A stretch of DNA of 33,103 bases from Nitrospirales bacterium (GTDB taxonomy: Bacteria > Nitrospirota > Nitrospiria > Nitrospirales > UBA8639). The notes beneath the pieces were generated by a model. It had not been told where the DNA came from, did not search any database, and was given only the letters and a program-made list of their open reading frames with translations. Location: contig BQIX01000006.1 in assembly GCA_021604145.1 (NCBI GenBank), positions 1 to 33,103 on the forward strand, written 5' to 3'. A program made the position numbers and the translations under genes. This document shows positions 4,960 through 32,318 of this stretch, piece by piece. How positions within the stretch are numbered: position 1 is the stretch's first letter; each line of letters opens with the position of its first letter.

Positions 4960-6759
4960 ATGATTGAATTAGCAATCTTCTCCGTATCGTTGCTGTTGGC
5001 ATGTTTACTGACTCCAGTTGTGAAAAGGATATCATTAAAGCAGGAGTGGGTGGCCGCACCAAAAGCTGATCGATGGCATCAATTACCAACGGCACTTCAT
5101 GGCGGCGTTGCGATTTATCTGGCGTTTACCGTTCCGCTTATATTTCTAGGGACTTCTCATTCAAAGCTTTGGGTACTTCTCTTTGCCGCCACTCTTATTT
5201 TTATCTTAGGTCTGATTGATGACTTTCATCATTTGAAGCCCTATACCAAGCTGATTGTCCAGATTATTGCCGCCTGTATTATTGTGGCCAATGGTATTCT
5301 CATTGATGTTCCTACGTTTCCATATGTTGGGCTATTTTTAACAATATTTTGGATTGTGGGTATTACTAATGCGTTGAACCTTCTCGATAATATGGATGGC
5401 TTGTCGGTTGGGACGGGTTGTATTGCCGCACTCTGTCTCGCCGTGGCGGGGGTGTTTACTGGCACAACGTTGATGAGTGTCATTGGGTTTGGCCTGGCTG
5501 GAGCCACATTAGGATTTCTCTTTTTTAATTTTTATCCTGCCAAAATTTTCATGGGCGATTCTGGCAGTCTTTTTCTGGGGTTTTCCTTAGCCACGCTGTC
5601 TTTAATGGGAGGGTGGGAACAGGCCACGAATATCTTTTTGAGTTTGCTCGTGCCGGTCTTGGTGTTAGCCGTGCCGATATTTGACACCTCGTTTGTCGCA
5701 TTAGTGCGGTTTTTTAATGGACAAGCCATTTCTCAAGGTGGACGTGACCATACCTCACATCGAATGGTCGCTTTTGGTCTTCCAGAGCGTACAACCGTCT
5801 TATTTTTCTACGCAATGAGCCTCATGTGTGGGGCCATTGCGTTGACTGGTGTAAAATTCAACCTCTTCTATCCTGCAATGCTCGCGATCCTCTTAGTGAT
5901 TATTTTTTGGTATTTTGGGCTTTTTTTAAGCGGAATCGTGTCATATGAGGAACAAGAATTAAAAAAACCCTTGAGCTTTGGTCGCAATGGTTTTGCACTG
6001 AACATGGTATTTTCTCATAAAAGGCAAATCGGTGAAGTGGTGGTGGATTGCGTCCTCATCGGTGTGTCATTTACGTTGGCGTATTTTGTTCGATTTGAAG
6101 GATTACCTGCCTACTACGTCAACGCAATTACGGAATCGCTTCCATTCCTTATCCCCTTGAAGCTTTTTGTGTTTTTTTATTTTGGATTGTATCGAGGAAT
6201 CTGGCGTTATGTAGGCATGCAGGATCTTATTAACATTCTGAAGGCCGTTACCGTCAGTTCAGTGCTCTCTATTGTGGCGATCGCGATGGTGTTTCGGTTG
6301 GAAGGACATGCCCGGTCAGTATTTTTTATCGATTGGATGTTGTTGTTGCTTATGGTTGGAGGTGTTCGTGTTCTCATTCGTTTGATTAAAGAGTACCTTG
6401 GGTCCTGGGTAAAGCCTGAAGGCAAACGCCTACTCATTATGGGGGCGGGAGATGCTGGAGAGATTGCCTTACGAGAAATTCGCAACAATCCAACGATCAA
6501 CTATATGCCCATAGGATTTATTGATGATGACCGAAGTAAACTGGGGCGGGAAATTCATGGTATTCCGGTCATGGGTACACGCATGGAACTCTTGAGTGTC
6601 GTGCAGAAGTATCGAGTTGAAGAAATTCTTGTGGCCATTCCTTCAGCCAATAAAGGTATGCTGGCAAAAATATTACAGGATTGCCGGGAAACTGGTATTT
6701 CGACGCATATACTCTCCCGAAGTAGGAAGCTTGCCTCTGCCTCTGTGGTATCGGCCTGA
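4960..6759 (+). CDS. Fusion: WecA/MraY-type polyprenyl phosphosugar transferase + N-terminal half of CapD/WbpM
   Basis: Residues 1-320 are a polytopic polyprenyl-phosphate N-acetylhexosamine-1-phosphate transferase of the WecA/TagO type: DDFHHLKP at 87-94, NALNLLDNMDGL at 137-148, MGDSGS at 198-203 and the HTSHR histidine cluster at 264-268. It should start the glycan on undecaprenyl phosphate. Residues from about 355 match the N-terminal part of CapD/WbpM/PglF proteins: four membrane segments (360-475) and a Rossmann domain with GAGDAGE at 495-501 and IGFIDDD near 518. The protein stops at 599, where CapD-like proteins would continue with their catalytic SDR domain, which is absent. The stop is a clean TGA with no remnant seen downstream. 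The fused Rossmann part may be regulatory or bind a nucleotide; its function is unknown. The transferase assignment is firm, the sugar is not. Confidence 0.88.
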   Translation: MIELAIFSVSLLLACLLTPVVKRISLKQEWVAAPKADRWHQLPTALHGGVAIYLAFTVPLIFLGTSHSKLWVLLFAATLIFILGLIDDFHHLKPYTKLIVQIIAACIIVANGILIDVPTFPYVGLFLTIFWIVGITNALNLLDNMDGLSVGTGCIAALCLAVAGVFTGTTLMSVIGFGLAGATLGFLFFNFYPAKIFMGDSGSLFLGFSLATLSLMGGWEQATNIFLSLLVPVLVLAVPIFDTSFVALVRFFNGQAISQGGRDHTSHRMVAFGLPERTTVLFFYAMSLMCGAIALTGVKFNLFYPAMLAILLVIIFWYFGLFLSGIVSYEEQELKKPLSFGRNGFALNMVFSHKRQIGEVVVDCVLIGVSFTLAYFVRFEGLPAYYVNAITESLPFLIPLKLFVFFYFGLYRGIWRYVGMQDLINILKAVTVSSVLSIVAIAMVFRLEGHARSVFFIDWMLLLLMVGGVRVLIRLIKEYLGSWVKPEGKRLLIMGAGDAGEIALREIRNNPTINYMPIGFIDDDRSKLGREIHGIPVMGTRMELLSVVQKYRVEEILVAIPSANKGMLAKILQDCRETGISTHILSRSRKLASASVVSA

Positions 6760-6809
6760 CAAACCATCTTGTCATGACTAGCACTCAAAAGATCTTCAAG
6801 GAAATAATC

Positions 6810-6837
6810 TTGACACATGCTCGGATTTATGTTCAAT
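6810..6837 (+). promoter_or_regulatory. Putative promoter of the winged-helix/UpxY genes, overlapped by an operator
   Basis: TTGACA at 6810-6815 (6/6), a 16-base spacer and TTCAAT at 6832-6837 (4/6 to TATAAT). The -10 hexamer lies inside the first of two palindromes (6831-6845), the arrangement expected for repression by steric block. The weak -10 keeps the confidence moderate. Confidence 0.45.
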
Positions 6838-6867
6838 TTGTGAACAAGTAGCGTTCAATATTTGAAC
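6831..6867. promoter_or_regulatory. Two tandem 15-bp palindromes, likely operator pair
   Basis: GTTCAATTTGTGAAC at 6831-6845 and GTTCAATATTTGAAC at 6853-6867. Both are GTTCA-N5-TGAAC with perfect 5-bp arms, and they start 22 bp apart, close to two helical turns, so a regulator would meet both on the same face of the DNA. The first overlaps the proposed -10; the second lies in the early transcribed region. They sit 36 bases upstream of the winged-helix gene, making autoregulation the simplest reading (inference). Confidence 0.65.
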
Positions 6868-6903
6868 GGACAGAAGCATGAGGTCTTTTGTTAGGAGTTT
6901 CGA

Positions 6904-7482
6904 ATGGATAAAGATGGACAACGTGCCCTTATTGTTCTTCAAGAGATTGAGCAAAATCCTATCCTCACGCAGCGCTCACTCTCTCTCAAGCTCGGTATGG
7001 CCTTAGGATTAACGAATCTCTACCTGAAGAGATTAGTACGAAAAGGACATATTAAAGTTACCACGATTCCAAGGAATCGCATTCGCTATCTTCTTACCCC
7101 TCGCGGTATTAAAGAAAAATCACGATTGACCTATGAATATCTCCAATACTCTTTGACCTATTACCGTGATGTTCGGCAAAGACTGAATCAGACGTTGGCG
7201 TATCTGAGTCAGCTAGGTAAAAAACGAATTGTTATTTATGGAGTTGGAGAACTTGCAGAATTTGCTTATCTTGCGCTTCAGGAAAGTGACCTAATCTTGG
7301 TGGGGTTTGTCTCAGACGAGCCTGGTGACAGTTTTCTCTCTTTTCCTTGCGTCAGTCTGAAGTCGCTACAAGATTGGACGTTTGATGCCATTCTGATTAG
7401 CGATCTTGCTCATATCGAAGCAGGTAGAAAAAAACTTCTTGCCTTACGGATACCAGCAGAACACGTGTTTTCGGTTGTCTAG
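6904..7482 (+). CDS. Winged-helix regulator (EPS-associated MarR-like) fused to a Rossmann-like domain
   Basis: 192 residues. Residues 8-72 form a winged helix of the MarR-like type found in exopolysaccharide loci: a scaffold with LTQRSLSLKLGMALGLTNLY as recognition region, then LVRKGHIKVTT and RYLLTPRGIKEKSR as the wing. A helical linker (73-104) follows. Residues 106-192 look like a compact Rossmann-like domain: the strand RIVIYGVGELAE (108-119), then LVGFVSDE (132-139) and DAILISDL (161-168). The known EPS-associated MarR family is only about 100 residues, so the C-terminal half is an extension that could bind a nucleotide, sugar nucleotide or cofactor. AGGAG at 6893-6897 ends 6 bases before ATG 6904. 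It lies downstream of the palindrome pair and upstream of the antiterminator gene. DNA binding is well supported; ligand sensing is inference. Confidence 0.75.
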   Translation: MDKDGQRALIVLQEIEQNPILTQRSLSLKLGMALGLTNLYLKRLVRKGHIKVTTIPRNRIRYLLTPRGIKEKSRLTYEYLQYSLTYYRDVRQRLNQTLAYLSQLGKKRIVIYGVGELAEFAYLALQESDLILVGFVSDEPGDSFLSFPCVSLKSLQDWTFDAILISDLAHIEAGRKKLLALRIPAEHVFSVV

Positions 7483-7493
7483 ATACCGGAATG

Positions 7494-7528
7494 ATTGCTA
7501 ATAGTCAGATGAATGACTATTAGACAAT
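7494..7528. promoter_or_regulatory. Strong inverted repeat (hairpin) between regulator and UpxY genes
   Basis: Perfect 10-bp arms CTAATAGTCA (7498-7507) and TGACTATTAG (7514-7523) around a 6-base loop. They extend by ATTG (7494-7497) pairing with CAAT (7525-7528) across a single bulged A at 7524. The sequence after it has no T-run, so it is not an intrinsic terminator. It could be an RNA structure controlling the UpxY gene, a processing site or a protein operator. Confidence 0.6.
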
Positions 7529-7579
7529 CCGCAGAGATTCAGTGAGGGAAACTTCGAGTGTAAGTGAGAGGGCGAAGCT

Positions 7580-8098
7580 GTGTTTGAAGAACATGCACAA
7601 AATGAGAAATCCATATGTTGGTATGCTCTTCGGACAAAGTCTCGACATGAGAAAATGGTTCGGGAAAGATTAGTGCGCAAGGGAGTAGAGGCCCTCCTCC
7701 CCACAGTCAAGCGGATGAGCCGATGGAAAGATCGGAAAAAAGAAATTGAGCATCCACTCTTTCCCGGATATTGTTTTGTCCGGTTCTCATTAGATGAAAA
7801 GTTGCAGGTTTTGAACATTATCGGAGTTGTGAATATCGTTGGATGTGGCCATCGGCCTGAAGTTATTCCCAATGAAGAGATTTCTTCGCTGAAAGTAGTG
7901 ATGACAAGCTTCCTTCAATATGATCCTCATCCTTATCTGAAAGAAGGTATGAATGTTGAGGTGGTGGATGGGGTATTAAAAGGTGTGCGAGGGATATTGT
8001 TGCAGAAAAGTGAAGGACATCGTTTGGCTGTTGGTGTTCGTTTGATTCAACAAGCTCTTGCTGTCGACGTTAATGCTATGGATGTTATGCCGCTTTAA
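7580..8098 (+). CDS. UpxY/NusG-like specialised transcription antiterminator
   Basis: 172-residue NusG paralogue of the UpxY/RfaH class, which travels with RNA polymerase and prevents early termination in long polysaccharide operons. The N-terminal NGN domain (about 12-110) shows the diagnostic WYALRTKSRHEKMV, LPTVKRMSRWKDRKK and HPLFPGYCFVRF segments. A KOW-type segment follows, LKEGMNVEVVDGVLKGVRGI (about 118-137). The GTG at 7580 is chosen because GAGAGGG (7566-7572) precedes it by 7 bases. Gene position after the initiating transferase and before the 8.3-32 kb biosynthetic genes suggests it acts on the downstream transcript. No ops-like recruitment site could be recognised with confidence. 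Confidence 0.9.
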   Translation: MFEEHAQNEKSICWYALRTKSRHEKMVRERLVRKGVEALLPTVKRMSRWKDRKKEIEHPLFPGYCFVRFSLDEKLQVLNIIGVVNIVGCGHRPEVIPNEEISSLKVVMTSFLQYDPHPYLKEGMNVEVVDGVLKGVRGILLQKSEGHRLAVGVRLIQQALAVDVNAMDVMPL

Positions 8099-11507: not shown

Positions 11508-13403
11508 ATGTGTGGGATTGCTGGATGTATCCACCTCAACGGAAGGCCACTTTCACCAGTAATCTTAAAGAAGATGACTGACTCGATTGCACATCGAGGT
11601 CCAGATGGTGAGGGGCATTGGATTGAGGGAAATGTGGGATTAGGCCACCGGCGGTTAGCGATTATTGACCCATCTCCTGCCGGACACCAACCCATGATCT
11701 CTGCCGATCACCGGTATGTCCTTACTTACAACGGCGAAGTATATAATTTTCGTGAATTGCGAAGTGAACTCGAGGTGCTTGGTTACTGGTTTCGTTCACG
11801 AACGGATAGTGAAGTGGTGTTGTACGCGTTTGCGGCTTGGGGGATAAAGGCCTTGGATCGATTAAATGGAATGTTTGCACTGGCCTTATGGGATCGAAAA
11901 GAAAATTCACTTGTGCTTGCAAGAGATCGTTACGGAATTAAGCCATTATATTATGGGTATCGGGGACAAACCTTGCTTTTTGGTTCAGAGCAAAAAGCGA
12001 TCTTAGCCTTTCCAGATTTTCAATCAACGTTGGATAAGGCGGCGCTTCTAGAATACTTTACATTCCAAAATATTTTTACTGACCGAACATTGTTAAATGA
12101 AATTAAGCTTCTGCCTGCTGGTCGGTATGCTGAATTGAAATTAAAGAATGAATATCCATCTCTCCAGTCAACTCAGTATTGGGATTTCAACTTTCGTGAG
12201 CCCGAAAACCCTGCTGAGACTCAAGAGTATCGTGAAGAGTTAGATCGGCTGTTTGAACAGGCGGTCAATCGGCAATTGGTTTCTGACGTGGAATTGGGAA
12301 CCTATCTCAGCGGTGGCTTGGATTCCGGATCGATCACTGCGGTGGCTGCACGATCCAATCCGTATATTAAATCGTTTACATGCGGTTTTGATCTGAGTTC
12401 TGCTTCCGGGATCGAATTGGGTTTTGATGAACGTGTGAAAGCTGAAGCGATGTCCGCTCGCTTCAAAACCGAACATTATGAAATGGTTCTAAAGGCTGGA
12501 GACATGGAACGTTGTTTGTCGAAAGTTGTCTGGCATATTGAAGAGCCTCGCGTGGGACAGAGTTATCCTAATTACTATGCTGCGCAACTTGCCAGCAAAT
12601 TTGTCAAAGTTGTGCTTTCAGGTGCGGGAGGAGATGAGCTTTTTGGTGGATATCCCTGGCGTTACTACCGGGCAACGATGTGCAATGATTTTGAACACTA
12701 CATCGAACTGTATTACAGTTTTTGGCAGCGCCTGATTCCCAATAAACTCATGGCGAAAGTCTTTGCTCCAATTTGGGATGATGTCAAAGATGTCTGGACT
12801 CGCGATATTTTTCGAGAGGTTTTTCGAACCCATGAGACTCATCTTGATTGTCCGCAAGACTACATCAATCATTCTTTGTATTTCGAAACCAAAACCTTTT
12901 TGCATGGTTTGCTTACTGTCGAGGATAAATTAAGTATGGCTCATGGTCTTGAAACGCGAGTTCCCTTTTTAGACAATGATTTGGTGGACTTTGCGATGAA
13001 ATGTCCTGTGAATCTTAAGCTTAACAATTTAGCGGAAGTCGTGCGTATCAATGAGAACGAACCGGGAAGTAAGCAGGGGATATATTTTCAGAAAACGAAA
13101 GACGGAAAACAGATCCTTCGCGATGTCATGCGACGATACATTCCTGCTGAAATTGCAGATGCAGTAAAGAAGGGGTTTTCCTCTCCAGATGCAAGTTGGT
13201 TTCGTGGTGACAGTATTCAATACGTTAAACGTGTGCTTTTTGATAACAAAGCAACAATTTATGATTTACTAGATCGACGGGAGGTGCAGCGCTTAGTTCA
13301 GGAACACTTAGATGGAGGAAAGAATCGACGTCTTTTGATTTGGTCCCTCATTTACCTAGAGATGTTCCTATCGGAGAGCTGTTCGTTGAAGTCGAAATTA
13401 TGA
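11508..13403 (+). CDS. AsnB-like glutamine-dependent amidotransferase 1
   Basis: 631-residue enzyme of the glutamine-hydrolysing asparagine synthase type. Class II glutaminase domain with nucleophile C2 (MCGIAG), HRGPDGEG (29-36), GHRRLAIID and YNGEVYNFREL. The synthetase domain has the ATP-pyrophosphatase loop SGGLDSGS (268-275), LSGAGGDELFGGY, EDKLSMAHGLETRVPFLD and KKGFSSPDASWF. In polysaccharide loci such enzymes (WbpS type) are proposed to turn uronic acids into uronamides, so a sugar carboxylate may be the acceptor rather than aspartate (inference). The ATG lies 2 bases after the methyltransferase stop, and the stop TGA overlaps the next ATG as ATGA. Closest alternative: a true biosynthetic asparagine synthetase, less likely here. 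Confidence 0.88.
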   Translation: MCGIAGCIHLNGRPLSPVILKKMTDSIAHRGPDGEGHWIEGNVGLGHRRLAIIDPSPAGHQPMISADHRYVLTYNGEVYNFRELRSELEVLGYWFRSRTDSEVVLYAFAAWGIKALDRLNGMFALALWDRKENSLVLARDRYGIKPLYYGYRGQTLLFGSEQKAILAFPDFQSTLDKAALLEYFTFQNIFTDRTLLNEIKLLPAGRYAELKLKNEYPSLQSTQYWDFNFREPENPAETQEYREELDRLFEQAVNRQLVSDVELGTYLSGGLDSGSITAVAARSNPYIKSFTCGFDLSSASGIELGFDERVKAEAMSARFKTEHYEMVLKAGDMERCLSKVVWHIEEPRVGQSYPNYYAAQLASKFVKVVLSGAGGDELFGGYPWRYYRATMCNDFEHYIELYYSFWQRLIPNKLMAKVFAPIWDDVKDVWTRDIFREVFRTHETHLDCPQDYINHSLYFETKTFLHGLLTVEDKLSMAHGLETRVPFLDNDLVDFAMKCPVNLKLNNLAEVVRINENEPGSKQGIYFQKTKDGKQILRDVMRRYIPAEIADAVKKGFSSPDASWFRGDSIQYVKRVLFDNKATIYDLLDRREVQRLVQEHLDGGKNRRLLIWSLIYLEMFLSESCSLKSKL

Positions 13404-30404: not shown

Positions 30405-32318
30405 ATGTGTGGAATAGTCGGCCGATTTAATTTTCATTCTCATGAGCCGGTGTCGGCTGAATTGATGAAGGGCATGGCGAAGCTATTAGCTCATCGTGGT
30501 CCAGATGGAGAGGGTGTGTACATTGATGGGTCTGTAGGTCTTGGACATCGTCGTTTATCTGTCATCGATTTAACGCAGGCTGGGCATCAGCCCATGAGCA
30601 GCAGAGCTGGAAGCGTGTGTCTCACATTTAATGGCGAGATCTATAACTTTCGGGAATTGAAATCGGTTCTCGAGGAGCGGGGCCACCAATTTCGATCACA
30701 GAGTGATACCGAGGTTATTTTAGAGGCATATCTCGAATATGGTGTGAAATGTGTCGAGCATTTACGAGGCATGTTTGCGTTTGCGATTTGGGATGCACGA
30801 GAACGACGTTTGTTTTTGGCGCGGGATCGAGTTGGTAAAAAACCGCTCTACTATTGGTTAGATAAGGATGGGATTGCGTTTGCTTCTGAGCCTAAATCCT
30901 TCTTGGCTGACCCTGGGTTTGACCCTGCTCCCTCCCTCGAAGCCATCTCCCATTATCTCACCTATCAATATGTGCCAAGTCCTTGGTCAGCCTTTCAAGG
31001 TGTTCAGAAACTTCAGCCCGGACATGTGCTGATCGTTGAACAGGGGAACGTGCGAACCGAACGGTATTGGAAACTTGCATATGACCAAACGTTTCGAGGC
31101 TCGGATGATGATGCCTCTGATGAGCTTTATCAGAAGCTTTTGGCGGCCACGAAATGTCGGTTGATCAGCGATGTGCCGTTGGGGGCTTTTCTCAGTGGCG
31201 GCATTGATTCGAGTGTGATTGTCGGTCTGATGGCTGAACTCGGGAGTATGCCTTTAAAAACATTTTCGATTGGGTTTGAGCAAGAGAAATATAATGAACT
31301 GCCATTTGCTCGTGAAGTAGCCGAAAAGTTTGGAACAGAGCATCAAGAATTTGTGGTGAATCCCGAGCCTGTTAAAATTTTCCCGCTATTGACCTGGCAC
31401 TACAATGAACCATTTGCCGATTCTTCAGCTATTCCGTCACTGTATTTGGCAGAGATGACGCGACAGCATGTGACCGTGGCCCTTAATGGCGATGGTGGAG
31501 ATGAAAATTTAGCAGGGTATGATCGATATGTGGCTACCGTCTTAAGTCATCGATATGATCAATTGCCGAATTTCTTGAGAAAAGGAATTGAAAAAACTGC
31601 TGGATATTTACCTGACGCCAAAGAGTCGAAGACCTTGAGTAGTCGAATCAAACGGTTGGCTTCAGGATTATCGTATTCTCCCTATCAACGATATATGTTA
31701 TGGATGGCACACTTTGATCACGAATTAAAGACTGAACTATGCACGAAGGAGTTTTTGGAAAAATCAGGTGGAAACAACTCATCCGAGATTCTCGTCGATG
31801 CCTTTGAACAATCCAATGCAAGAGATCTCATGACGAAAACACTGGATGTGGATGTTCAGACGTATTTACCGAATGACTTGTTGGTGAAAGTTGATGTGGC
31901 GACGATGGCATATGGATTAGAAGCCCGTTCGCCATTTCTTGATCATCAGGTGATGGAGTTTTGCGCAAGTTTACCGGCTGCCATGAAACTACGAGGGACG
32001 GTGAAAAAGTTTATTTTAAAGAGGGCGGCTAAAAAACTTTTACCATCCAATATTTTGAATAGACCCAAAATGGGGTTTGGTGTGCCGATTGACCATTGGT
32101 TGCGAAATGAATTACGGGAGATGGCCTATGACATCTTGTTGTCTCCTCGAGCGATAAAACGGGGATATTTTAATGCGTCAGTAGTCAAACGGCTGTTGGA
32201 TGAACATGTGAAAAAAGAACGAGCGTGGCAGTATCAAATTTGGAATTTGCTTATACTGGAATTGTGGTTTCGAATGTTTATTGATGGTGAATGGAAACTA
32301 CGGTATCAGGTCACGTAA
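30405..32318 (+). CDS. AsnB-like glutamine-dependent amidotransferase 2
   Basis: 637 residues, asparagine-synthase family. Glutaminase nucleophile C2 in MCGIVG, HRGPDGEG (30-37), GHRRLSVID, FNGEIYNFREL; synthetase domain with SGGIDSS (264-270), ALNGDGGDENLAGYDRY, KVDVATMAYGLEARSPFLD and PKMGFGVPIDHW. The Asp-Asp and glycine motifs needed for adenylation are intact, although the GGDE loop reads GGDENLAGY rather than the commoner LFGGY. AAAGGGTGA before the ATG gives a ribosome binding site at an unusually long spacing. Differs clearly from the 11508 enzyme, so it is not a recent duplicate. Could be true asparagine synthetase or a sugar uronamide-forming enzyme; context favours the latter weakly. 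Confidence 0.88.
   Translation: MCGIVGRFNFHSHEPVSAELMKGMAKLLAHRGPDGEGVYIDGSVGLGHRRLSVIDLTQAGHQPMSSRAGSVCLTFNGEIYNFRELKSVLEERGHQFRSQSDTEVILEAYLEYGVKCVEHLRGMFAFAIWDARERRLFLARDRVGKKPLYYWLDKDGIAFASEPKSFLADPGFDPAPSLEAISHYLTYQYVPSPWSAFQGVQKLQPGHVLIVEQGNVRTERYWKLAYDQTFRGSDDDASDELYQKLLAATKCRLISDVPLGAFLSGGIDSSVIVGLMAELGSMPLKTFSIGFEQEKYNELPFAREVAEKFGTEHQEFVVNPEPVKIFPLLTWHYNEPFADSSAIPSLYLAEMTRQHVTVALNGDGGDENLAGYDRYVATVLSHRYDQLPNFLRKGIEKTAGYLPDAKESKTLSSRIKRLASGLSYSPYQRYMLWMAHFDHELKTELCTKEFLEKSGGNNSSEILVDAFEQSNARDLMTKTLDVDVQTYLPNDLLVKVDVATMAYGLEARSPFLDHQVMEFCASLPAAMKLRGTVKKFILKRAAKKLLPSNILNRPKMGFGVPIDHWLRNELREMAYDILLSPRAIKRGYFNASVVKRLLDEHVKKERAWQYQIWNLLILELWFRMFIDGEWKLRYQVT

Follow-up and report, generated by a model that had tools for sequence, protein, structure and literature searches.

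A 2020 study of RfaH evolution states that, within this group of proteins, detailed knowledge of recruitment exists for Escherichia coli RfaH alone (PMC7593976). RfaH requires a hairpin in ops that is closed by the C3:G8 pair (PMC5995543), and the UpxY factors of Bacteroides exert their action in the leaders that precede upxY (PMC7819879). GCGAAGC forms an extraordinarily stable minihairpin with a Tm of 78 °C, and GNA and GNNA loops in general share this stability (PMC4686876). For the EPS-associated MarR family (TIGR04176, MarR_EPS), a short literature search returned no study. The Nitrospirales locus described here contains a MarR_EPS-like regulator (REG), a 24-nt ops-like element and a UpxY-family antiterminator. 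We consider it moderately probable that these form a two-layer switch heading a surface-glycan operon, in which REG would repress its own promoter and UpxY would be loaded at the ops-like element.

The window, by which we mean the whole stretch of 33,103 nt that was analysed (contig BQIX01000006.1, assembly GCA_021604145.1), carries a long surface-glycan gene cluster. A polyprenyl-phosphate sugar transferase ORF (positions 4960–6759) precedes the REG promoter and is followed along the DNA by the promoter with two palindromes, REG, a hairpin, the 24-nt element and upxY. An earlier, sequence-only reading of this DNA had proposed a control unit of four elements in a row; all four are confirmed, but the 24-nt element at 7559–7582 had been missed. 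The sugar transferase ORF fuses a WecA-like Glycos_transf_4 domain with a CoA_binding_3 domain, an unusual combination, and its second domain is similar to the C-terminal domain of REG. The glycan cluster also includes two asparagine-synthase-like genes (11508–13403 and 30405–32318) that are 32% identical. The Nitrospirales MAG G002 (JAJDBM010000036) belongs to the same genus as the window genome and encodes a REG that is 81% identical. Because related genomes share ancestry, the locus and genome counts given below are raw counts and do not represent independent events.

The REG promoter is composed of a −35 element, TTGACA (6810–6815, forward strand), and an extended −10, TGT-TCAATT (6830–6838, forward strand), separated by a 17-bp spacer. 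The TG lies at 6830–6831 and the −10 hexamer, TCAATT, at 6833–6838, inside the first operator. The match of the −10 to consensus is weak, which explains why a generic promoter scan did not report this promoter, and the promoter call is based on conservation: most REG homologues have TTGAC(T/A) at an equal distance from the palindrome, the T preceding the palindrome is kept in 29 of 32, and the −35 (TTGACT) and extended −10 stand at a fixed distance in homologues, with the −10 inside the palindrome. The two palindromes, O1 (GTTCAATTTGTGAAC, 6831–6845) and O2 (GTTCAATATTTGAAC, 6853–6867), both on the forward strand, are exact GTTCA-N5-TGAAC sequences with start positions 22 bp apart, and are the sole exact copies in the window. 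Both the paired palindromes and a TTGACA promoter with its −10 inside an operator are therefore as originally described, apart from the weakness of the −10.

The palindrome was looked for within 150 bp upstream of the start in REG homologues from Nitrospirales and other phyla, those outside the order having been collected by related-locus and TIGR04176 searches. This comparison, which the sequence-only reading had proposed as a check, bears out the operator assignment. The palindrome is present upstream of all 28 long REG homologues in the order, 32 of 44 long homologues outside it and 19 of 31 short MarR_EPS relatives. In an unbiased count over all 10,240 palindromes (a 5-mer, a gap of 0–9 and the reverse complement), GTTCA with a gap of 5 ranks first in each homologue set, and nearly all other types that occur at three or more loci represent this site in shifted or inner form. 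A second operator within the order is found only in G000, G002 and G004; pairing at 22–23 bp is special to this genus, and pairs with other spacings recur elsewhere. Autoregulation of REG, as had been proposed, is strongly supported by the conservation of the operator and the position of the −10 within it. Autorepression is the natural reading of the promoter–operator geometry, since the operator overlaps the −10.

The genome to which the window belongs holds seven copies of the palindrome, of which two are O1 and O2 and the remaining five all lie inside ORFs. It is therefore most likely that REG represses no operon but its own, and a wider regulon of the palindrome in this genome was ruled out on the same grounds. 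Outside the order, many long REG genes have their ATG start codon within the right operator half-site (GTTCANNNATGAAC, position −9; loci L121, L137, L139, L140, L142, L143, L145–L147, L150, L153 and L154), and the same arrangement is seen in the short-form loci L100, L104 and L108. This placement would suggest either a leaderless mRNA or a wrongly assigned start.

REG (6904–7482, forward strand, 192 aa) consists of a MarR_EPS-like winged helix, a long helix and a Rossmann-like domain. The winged helix matches HTH_24 (E = 1.2e-7; 31.6 bits compared with a cut-off of 21.9), as expected for the MarR superfamily, and residues 8–96 match TIGR04176 at 69.4–70.8 bits, which is below the cut-off of 88. 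An AlphaFold2 model based on six sequences (mean pLDDT 89, pTM 0.63) predicts the winged helix, the long helix and an α/β domain, in agreement with the earlier description of a winged-helix protein with an added Rossmann-like domain. The best Foldseek match to this model is 2g6t (87 columns), followed by the MarR proteins MepR, HcaR and MarR. The 2g6t columns most likely correspond to the C-terminal domain of REG, for which a profile search likewise gives a weak match to 2g6t.

This C-terminal domain (residues 105–192; 7216–7482, forward strand), delineated with AlphaFold2, Foldseek and hhalign, has a putative ligand-binding or regulatory role. It has no Pfam match among the families shown, and a phmmer search of REG against the PDB gave no meaningful match. 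Alignment with hhalign indicates a distant likeness to the CoA_binding_3 domain encoded at 4960–6759 (probability 71%). Conservation of the glycine motif is not strict, with GTSEFAE or GTNELAE in relatives; residues ~115–119 (G/S/T/N, E, A, E) and Asp161 are well kept. The Rossmann-like domain may serve as a metabolite sensor.

With 192 residues and an α/β domain, REG does not fit the short form of MarR_EPS, which has about 105 positions and no further domain. The contrast drawn earlier between REG and the short family is only partly correct, since the long form is common elsewhere. In a TIGR04176 search of the phylum of G118, matches above the cut-off are mostly short frames and those below it mostly frames of ~190–230 codons; given this split by both score and frame length, we take the long form to be a widespread sibling family of MarR_EPS. 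In the class of G099, scanning with TIGR04176 at E ≤ 1e-20, too strict a threshold, found nothing. More divergent REG-like proteins (21–27% identity) form a second group, represented by L029 (G067), G069, G071, G087 and G094; L029, the one divergent locus that was read, lacks the palindrome. Homologues 43–49% identical to REG, with the operator present, are found at L032, L033 and L035 in MAGs labelled Omnitrophota, Methylomirabilota and Syntrophobacteria, and reflect either transfer between phyla or misbinned contigs.

The gene product encoded at 7580–8098 (forward strand, 172 aa) is a UpxY-family transcription antiterminator with a NusG domain and RfaH relatives in the PDB. It scores 113 bits against NF033644 (cut-off 100), confirming the UpxY antiterminator that had been placed after the hairpin, and 87.2 bits against RfaH (TIGR01955), below the cut-off of 144.5. 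UpxY is the next gene after the long form of REG in 37 of 72 loci compared with none of 31 after the short form, although in some of these 31 the available downstream sequence is shorter than 1.2 kb. The 37 loci comprise 22 of 28 in the order, 14 of 40 long loci in the phylum of G118 and one of four other long loci (L032–L035). This adjacency, together with the 24-nt element upstream of UpxY, supports and sharpens the original idea of a sensor coupled to antitermination. In L005 (G085), two small genes resembling a nucleotidyltransferase/HEPN pair by appearance lie between REG and UpxY, and more UpxY-like fragments are found downstream. In L013, L022, L023 and L025, from related genomes, a gene resembling an S23-type four-helix bundle is located between the 24-nt element and UpxY, and is reduced to a remnant in L025.

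The ops-like element, TGTAAGTGAGAGGGCGAAGCTGTG (7559–7582, forward strand), ends in the GTG start codon of UpxY and contains, on the non-template strand, the candidate minihairpin motif GCGAAGC with its GNA loop (7572–7578, forward strand). The element is found in nearly all REG–UpxY gaps that were compared side by side. A search with its 23-mer at up to three mismatches identified 34 copies in 30 of the 98 genomes of the order, compared with two for a reversed control; shuffles of the window gave none. An alignment of 30 copies shows 87–100% conservation from position −1 to 21 with one exception, the freely varying A/G at the centre of GCG(A/G)AGC. UpxY follows within 700 nt on the same strand for 26 of the 34 copies and REG lies within 1 kb upstream of 24. 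UpxY is present in 29 of the 30 element-bearing genomes compared with 27 of the 68 genomes that lack the element (Fisher 2.7e-8).

The exact core occurs in 59 of 396 genomes of the phylum, mostly in the order (control, 6), and 28 of 30 sites that were read lie just upstream of UpxY. The core (AGAGGGCGAAGCTATG) is also located at the UpxY start in a genus that lacks REG, and just upstream of UpxY in G089. Other copies are separated from UpxY by inserts (G050, G079, G085 and G087), occur where UpxY is elsewhere (G067:C178 and the second copy in G068) or head glycan operons where UpxY is not adjacent (G092, G095, G006 and G018); the G006 copy precedes genes for a sigma-54 activator, Poly_export and Wzz, and G018 has ORFs of equal lengths. 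Within the phylum but outside the order there are few matches, among them L232 (same class), which precedes UpxY, and inspection by eye of 15 REG–UpxY intergenic regions outside the order, nearly all outside the phylum, revealed no element. In L003 (G004), a decayed-looking copy (ACTGTCAGGGAGAGGGTAAAGCTTTG) follows REG with no adjacent UpxY. Taken with its placement, the pattern of conservation indicates that the element is probably a UpxY recruitment site.

The 12-nt segment GGCGAAGCTGTG aligns without gaps to ops (GGCGGTAGCGTG) and is identical at positions 1–4 and 10–12. The centre differs, so that ops itself is matched at only 7 of 12 positions. The flanking consensus-pause bases are in register without a gap, with GG at one end and TG at the other, and the leader position at polysaccharide operons is that of an ops-like element. 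Alignment of the full element to the JUMPstart 39-mer, which we take to include CTGTTAAG, gives p = 0.002–0.012 against mononucleotide shuffles. A primer in PMC4384082 confirms the 3′ part of JUMPstart, but reads CTGTAAAG at the place of CTGTTAAG.

In the element, C3:G7 and G2:C8 pairs could close a GNA loop that contains no T, and variation among the inner bases falls mainly on the N of GNA. ViennaRNA with DNA parameters predicts no stable fold for the 12-mer (0 kcal/mol); the minihairpin proposal is based on the published measurements of GCGAAGC oligonucleotides. The ops-contact residues of RfaH are partly shared by these UpxY proteins, with His20 replaced by Gln or Arg and Arg73 variable. 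Because several contact residues differ, the RfaH–ops contacts are not simply transferable.

The 24-nt element overlaps the start of upxY, and the possibility that it is no more than the ribosome-binding site and start region of that gene (AGAGGG, spacer and GTG/ATG), kept for translation, has to be weighed. AGAGGG lies 7 nt ahead of the GTG/ATG and the last base is G in all 16 copies placed at a UpxY start. Since the Shine–Dalgarno sequence and start codon overlap the element in many loci, translation explains part of its conservation. However, at least 22 contiguous bases are conserved, including the spacer and ~8 bases upstream of the Shine–Dalgarno sequence, and the main free position is the loop base. 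Copies also exist away from the UpxY start, behind inserts, in loci with UpxY elsewhere and in glycan operons with no adjacent UpxY. In these displaced copies the 22-mer is retained but the G of the start codon is often gone (8 of 18, compared with 0 of 16 at the UpxY start; Fisher 0.003), a test that is conditional on the limit of three mismatches in the element search, which more diverged displaced copies would escape. The displaced copies argue that a ribosome-binding site is not the whole explanation, and we regard translation as an unlikely sole cause. It is less likely still that the element is the target of REG or of another factor, such as an RNA-level regulator or small RNA, rather than of UpxY. 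Its position directly after REG in 23 of 28 loci of the order, in two of which UpxY has moved away (G067:C178 and G068), would fit such a target, but the core stands just upstream of UpxY in G089 and in the genus that lacks REG, the conserved REG operator differs in sequence and an Rfam search gave no match.

The remaining alternatives concern the sequence between REG and the element, and REG itself. The hairpin at 7498–7523 (forward strand), which the sequence-only reading had counted as part of the control unit, is real: its 10-bp stem is perfect, the predicted DNA folding energy is −6.3 kcal/mol (z = −5.0) and in G002, of the same genus, the arms are identical with a changed loop. A controlling (attenuator) role between REG and UpxY is nevertheless very improbable, as the hairpin has no T-tract and is missing in G004, also of the same genus, and in other genera; in those other genera the 24-nt element persists. 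It was rejected as a conserved part of the unit and is a local feature. Terminators are found in only 2 of 23 REG–element intervals (0.45 expected), which argues against a general attenuator. For the proposed switch this is a point against, as these intervals offer UpxY no consistent terminator to overcome. REG could also be an activator, or a ligand-free nucleoid-like autoregulator whose Rossmann-like domain is only a dimerization module. The long helix of the AlphaFold2 model could dimerize, the role in ligand binding is putative and relatives do not strictly preserve the glycine motif. We give this reading a low but real chance: the overlap of operator and −10 favours repression, and residues ~115–119 and Asp161 are kept more than a plain dimer module needs.

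The operator and the element are conserved, hold their positions and are associated with REG and UpxY; from these features we infer how the two-layer switch might operate. In the first layer, REG would act as a MarR-type autorepressor, a dimer on GTTCA-N5-TGAAC covering the −10 and thereby silencing REG, upxY and the downstream genes. Release of REG would follow a signal reaching the Rossmann-like domain, for which a nucleotide sugar or a dinucleotide is a possible candidate. The steps after initiation are modelled on RfaH and Bacteroides UpxY. RNA polymerase would pause at the ops-like element behind REG, where the non-template strand would expose the GCGAAGC minihairpin for binding by UpxY, and UpxY would stay on the polymerase and allow read-through of the long operon. 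Positive feedback would follow from the position of upxY directly behind the element. More tentatively, and somewhat short of a probable reading, Nitrospirales may possess a lineage-specific ops, composed of a pause and a GC-GNA-GC minihairpin, that recruits a UpxY-type NusG paralog, with a ligand-binding autorepressor of the long MarR_EPS form gating initiation.

A UpxY-family factor outside Proteobacteria and Bacteroidota is thus accompanied by a near-invariant candidate site that is directly testable in vitro. If the proposal is true, the principle of a pause plus a DNA hairpin is used by a different paralog with a different loop. The analysis also assigns an operator to the EPS-associated MarR family and delimits the long sibling of that family, which travels with antiterminators.

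Compared with MarR_EPS (TIGR04176), REG shares the winged helix over residues 8–96 and the upstream GTTCA-N5-TGAAC operator, but scores below the cut-off and carries a Rossmann-like extension of about 85 residues; UpxY adjoins only the long form. The extension has a GxGxxxE...GFxDD pattern similar to that of the N-terminal Rossmann-like domains of sugar enzymes (CoA_binding_3/PglD), but differs from them in having no Pfam match. The UpxY proteins of Bacteroides capsule operons (NF033644) resemble the one described here in family, for which it is over the cut-off, and in their place at the head of a glycan operon that is presumably controlled. In contrast to Bacteroides, no UpxZ is seen adjacent, and UpxY is preceded by a conserved ops-like element and, before it, an autoregulator of the MarR type. 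With E. coli RfaH and ops, the locus has in common a NusG paralog, polysaccharide operons and a short element in the leader that has identical pause bases at its flanks and in which a small non-template hairpin is possible. It differs in that UpxY falls below the RfaH cut-off, several ops-contact residues are changed, and a GNA triloop takes the place of the GGTA loop with its flipped T (T6) in ops.
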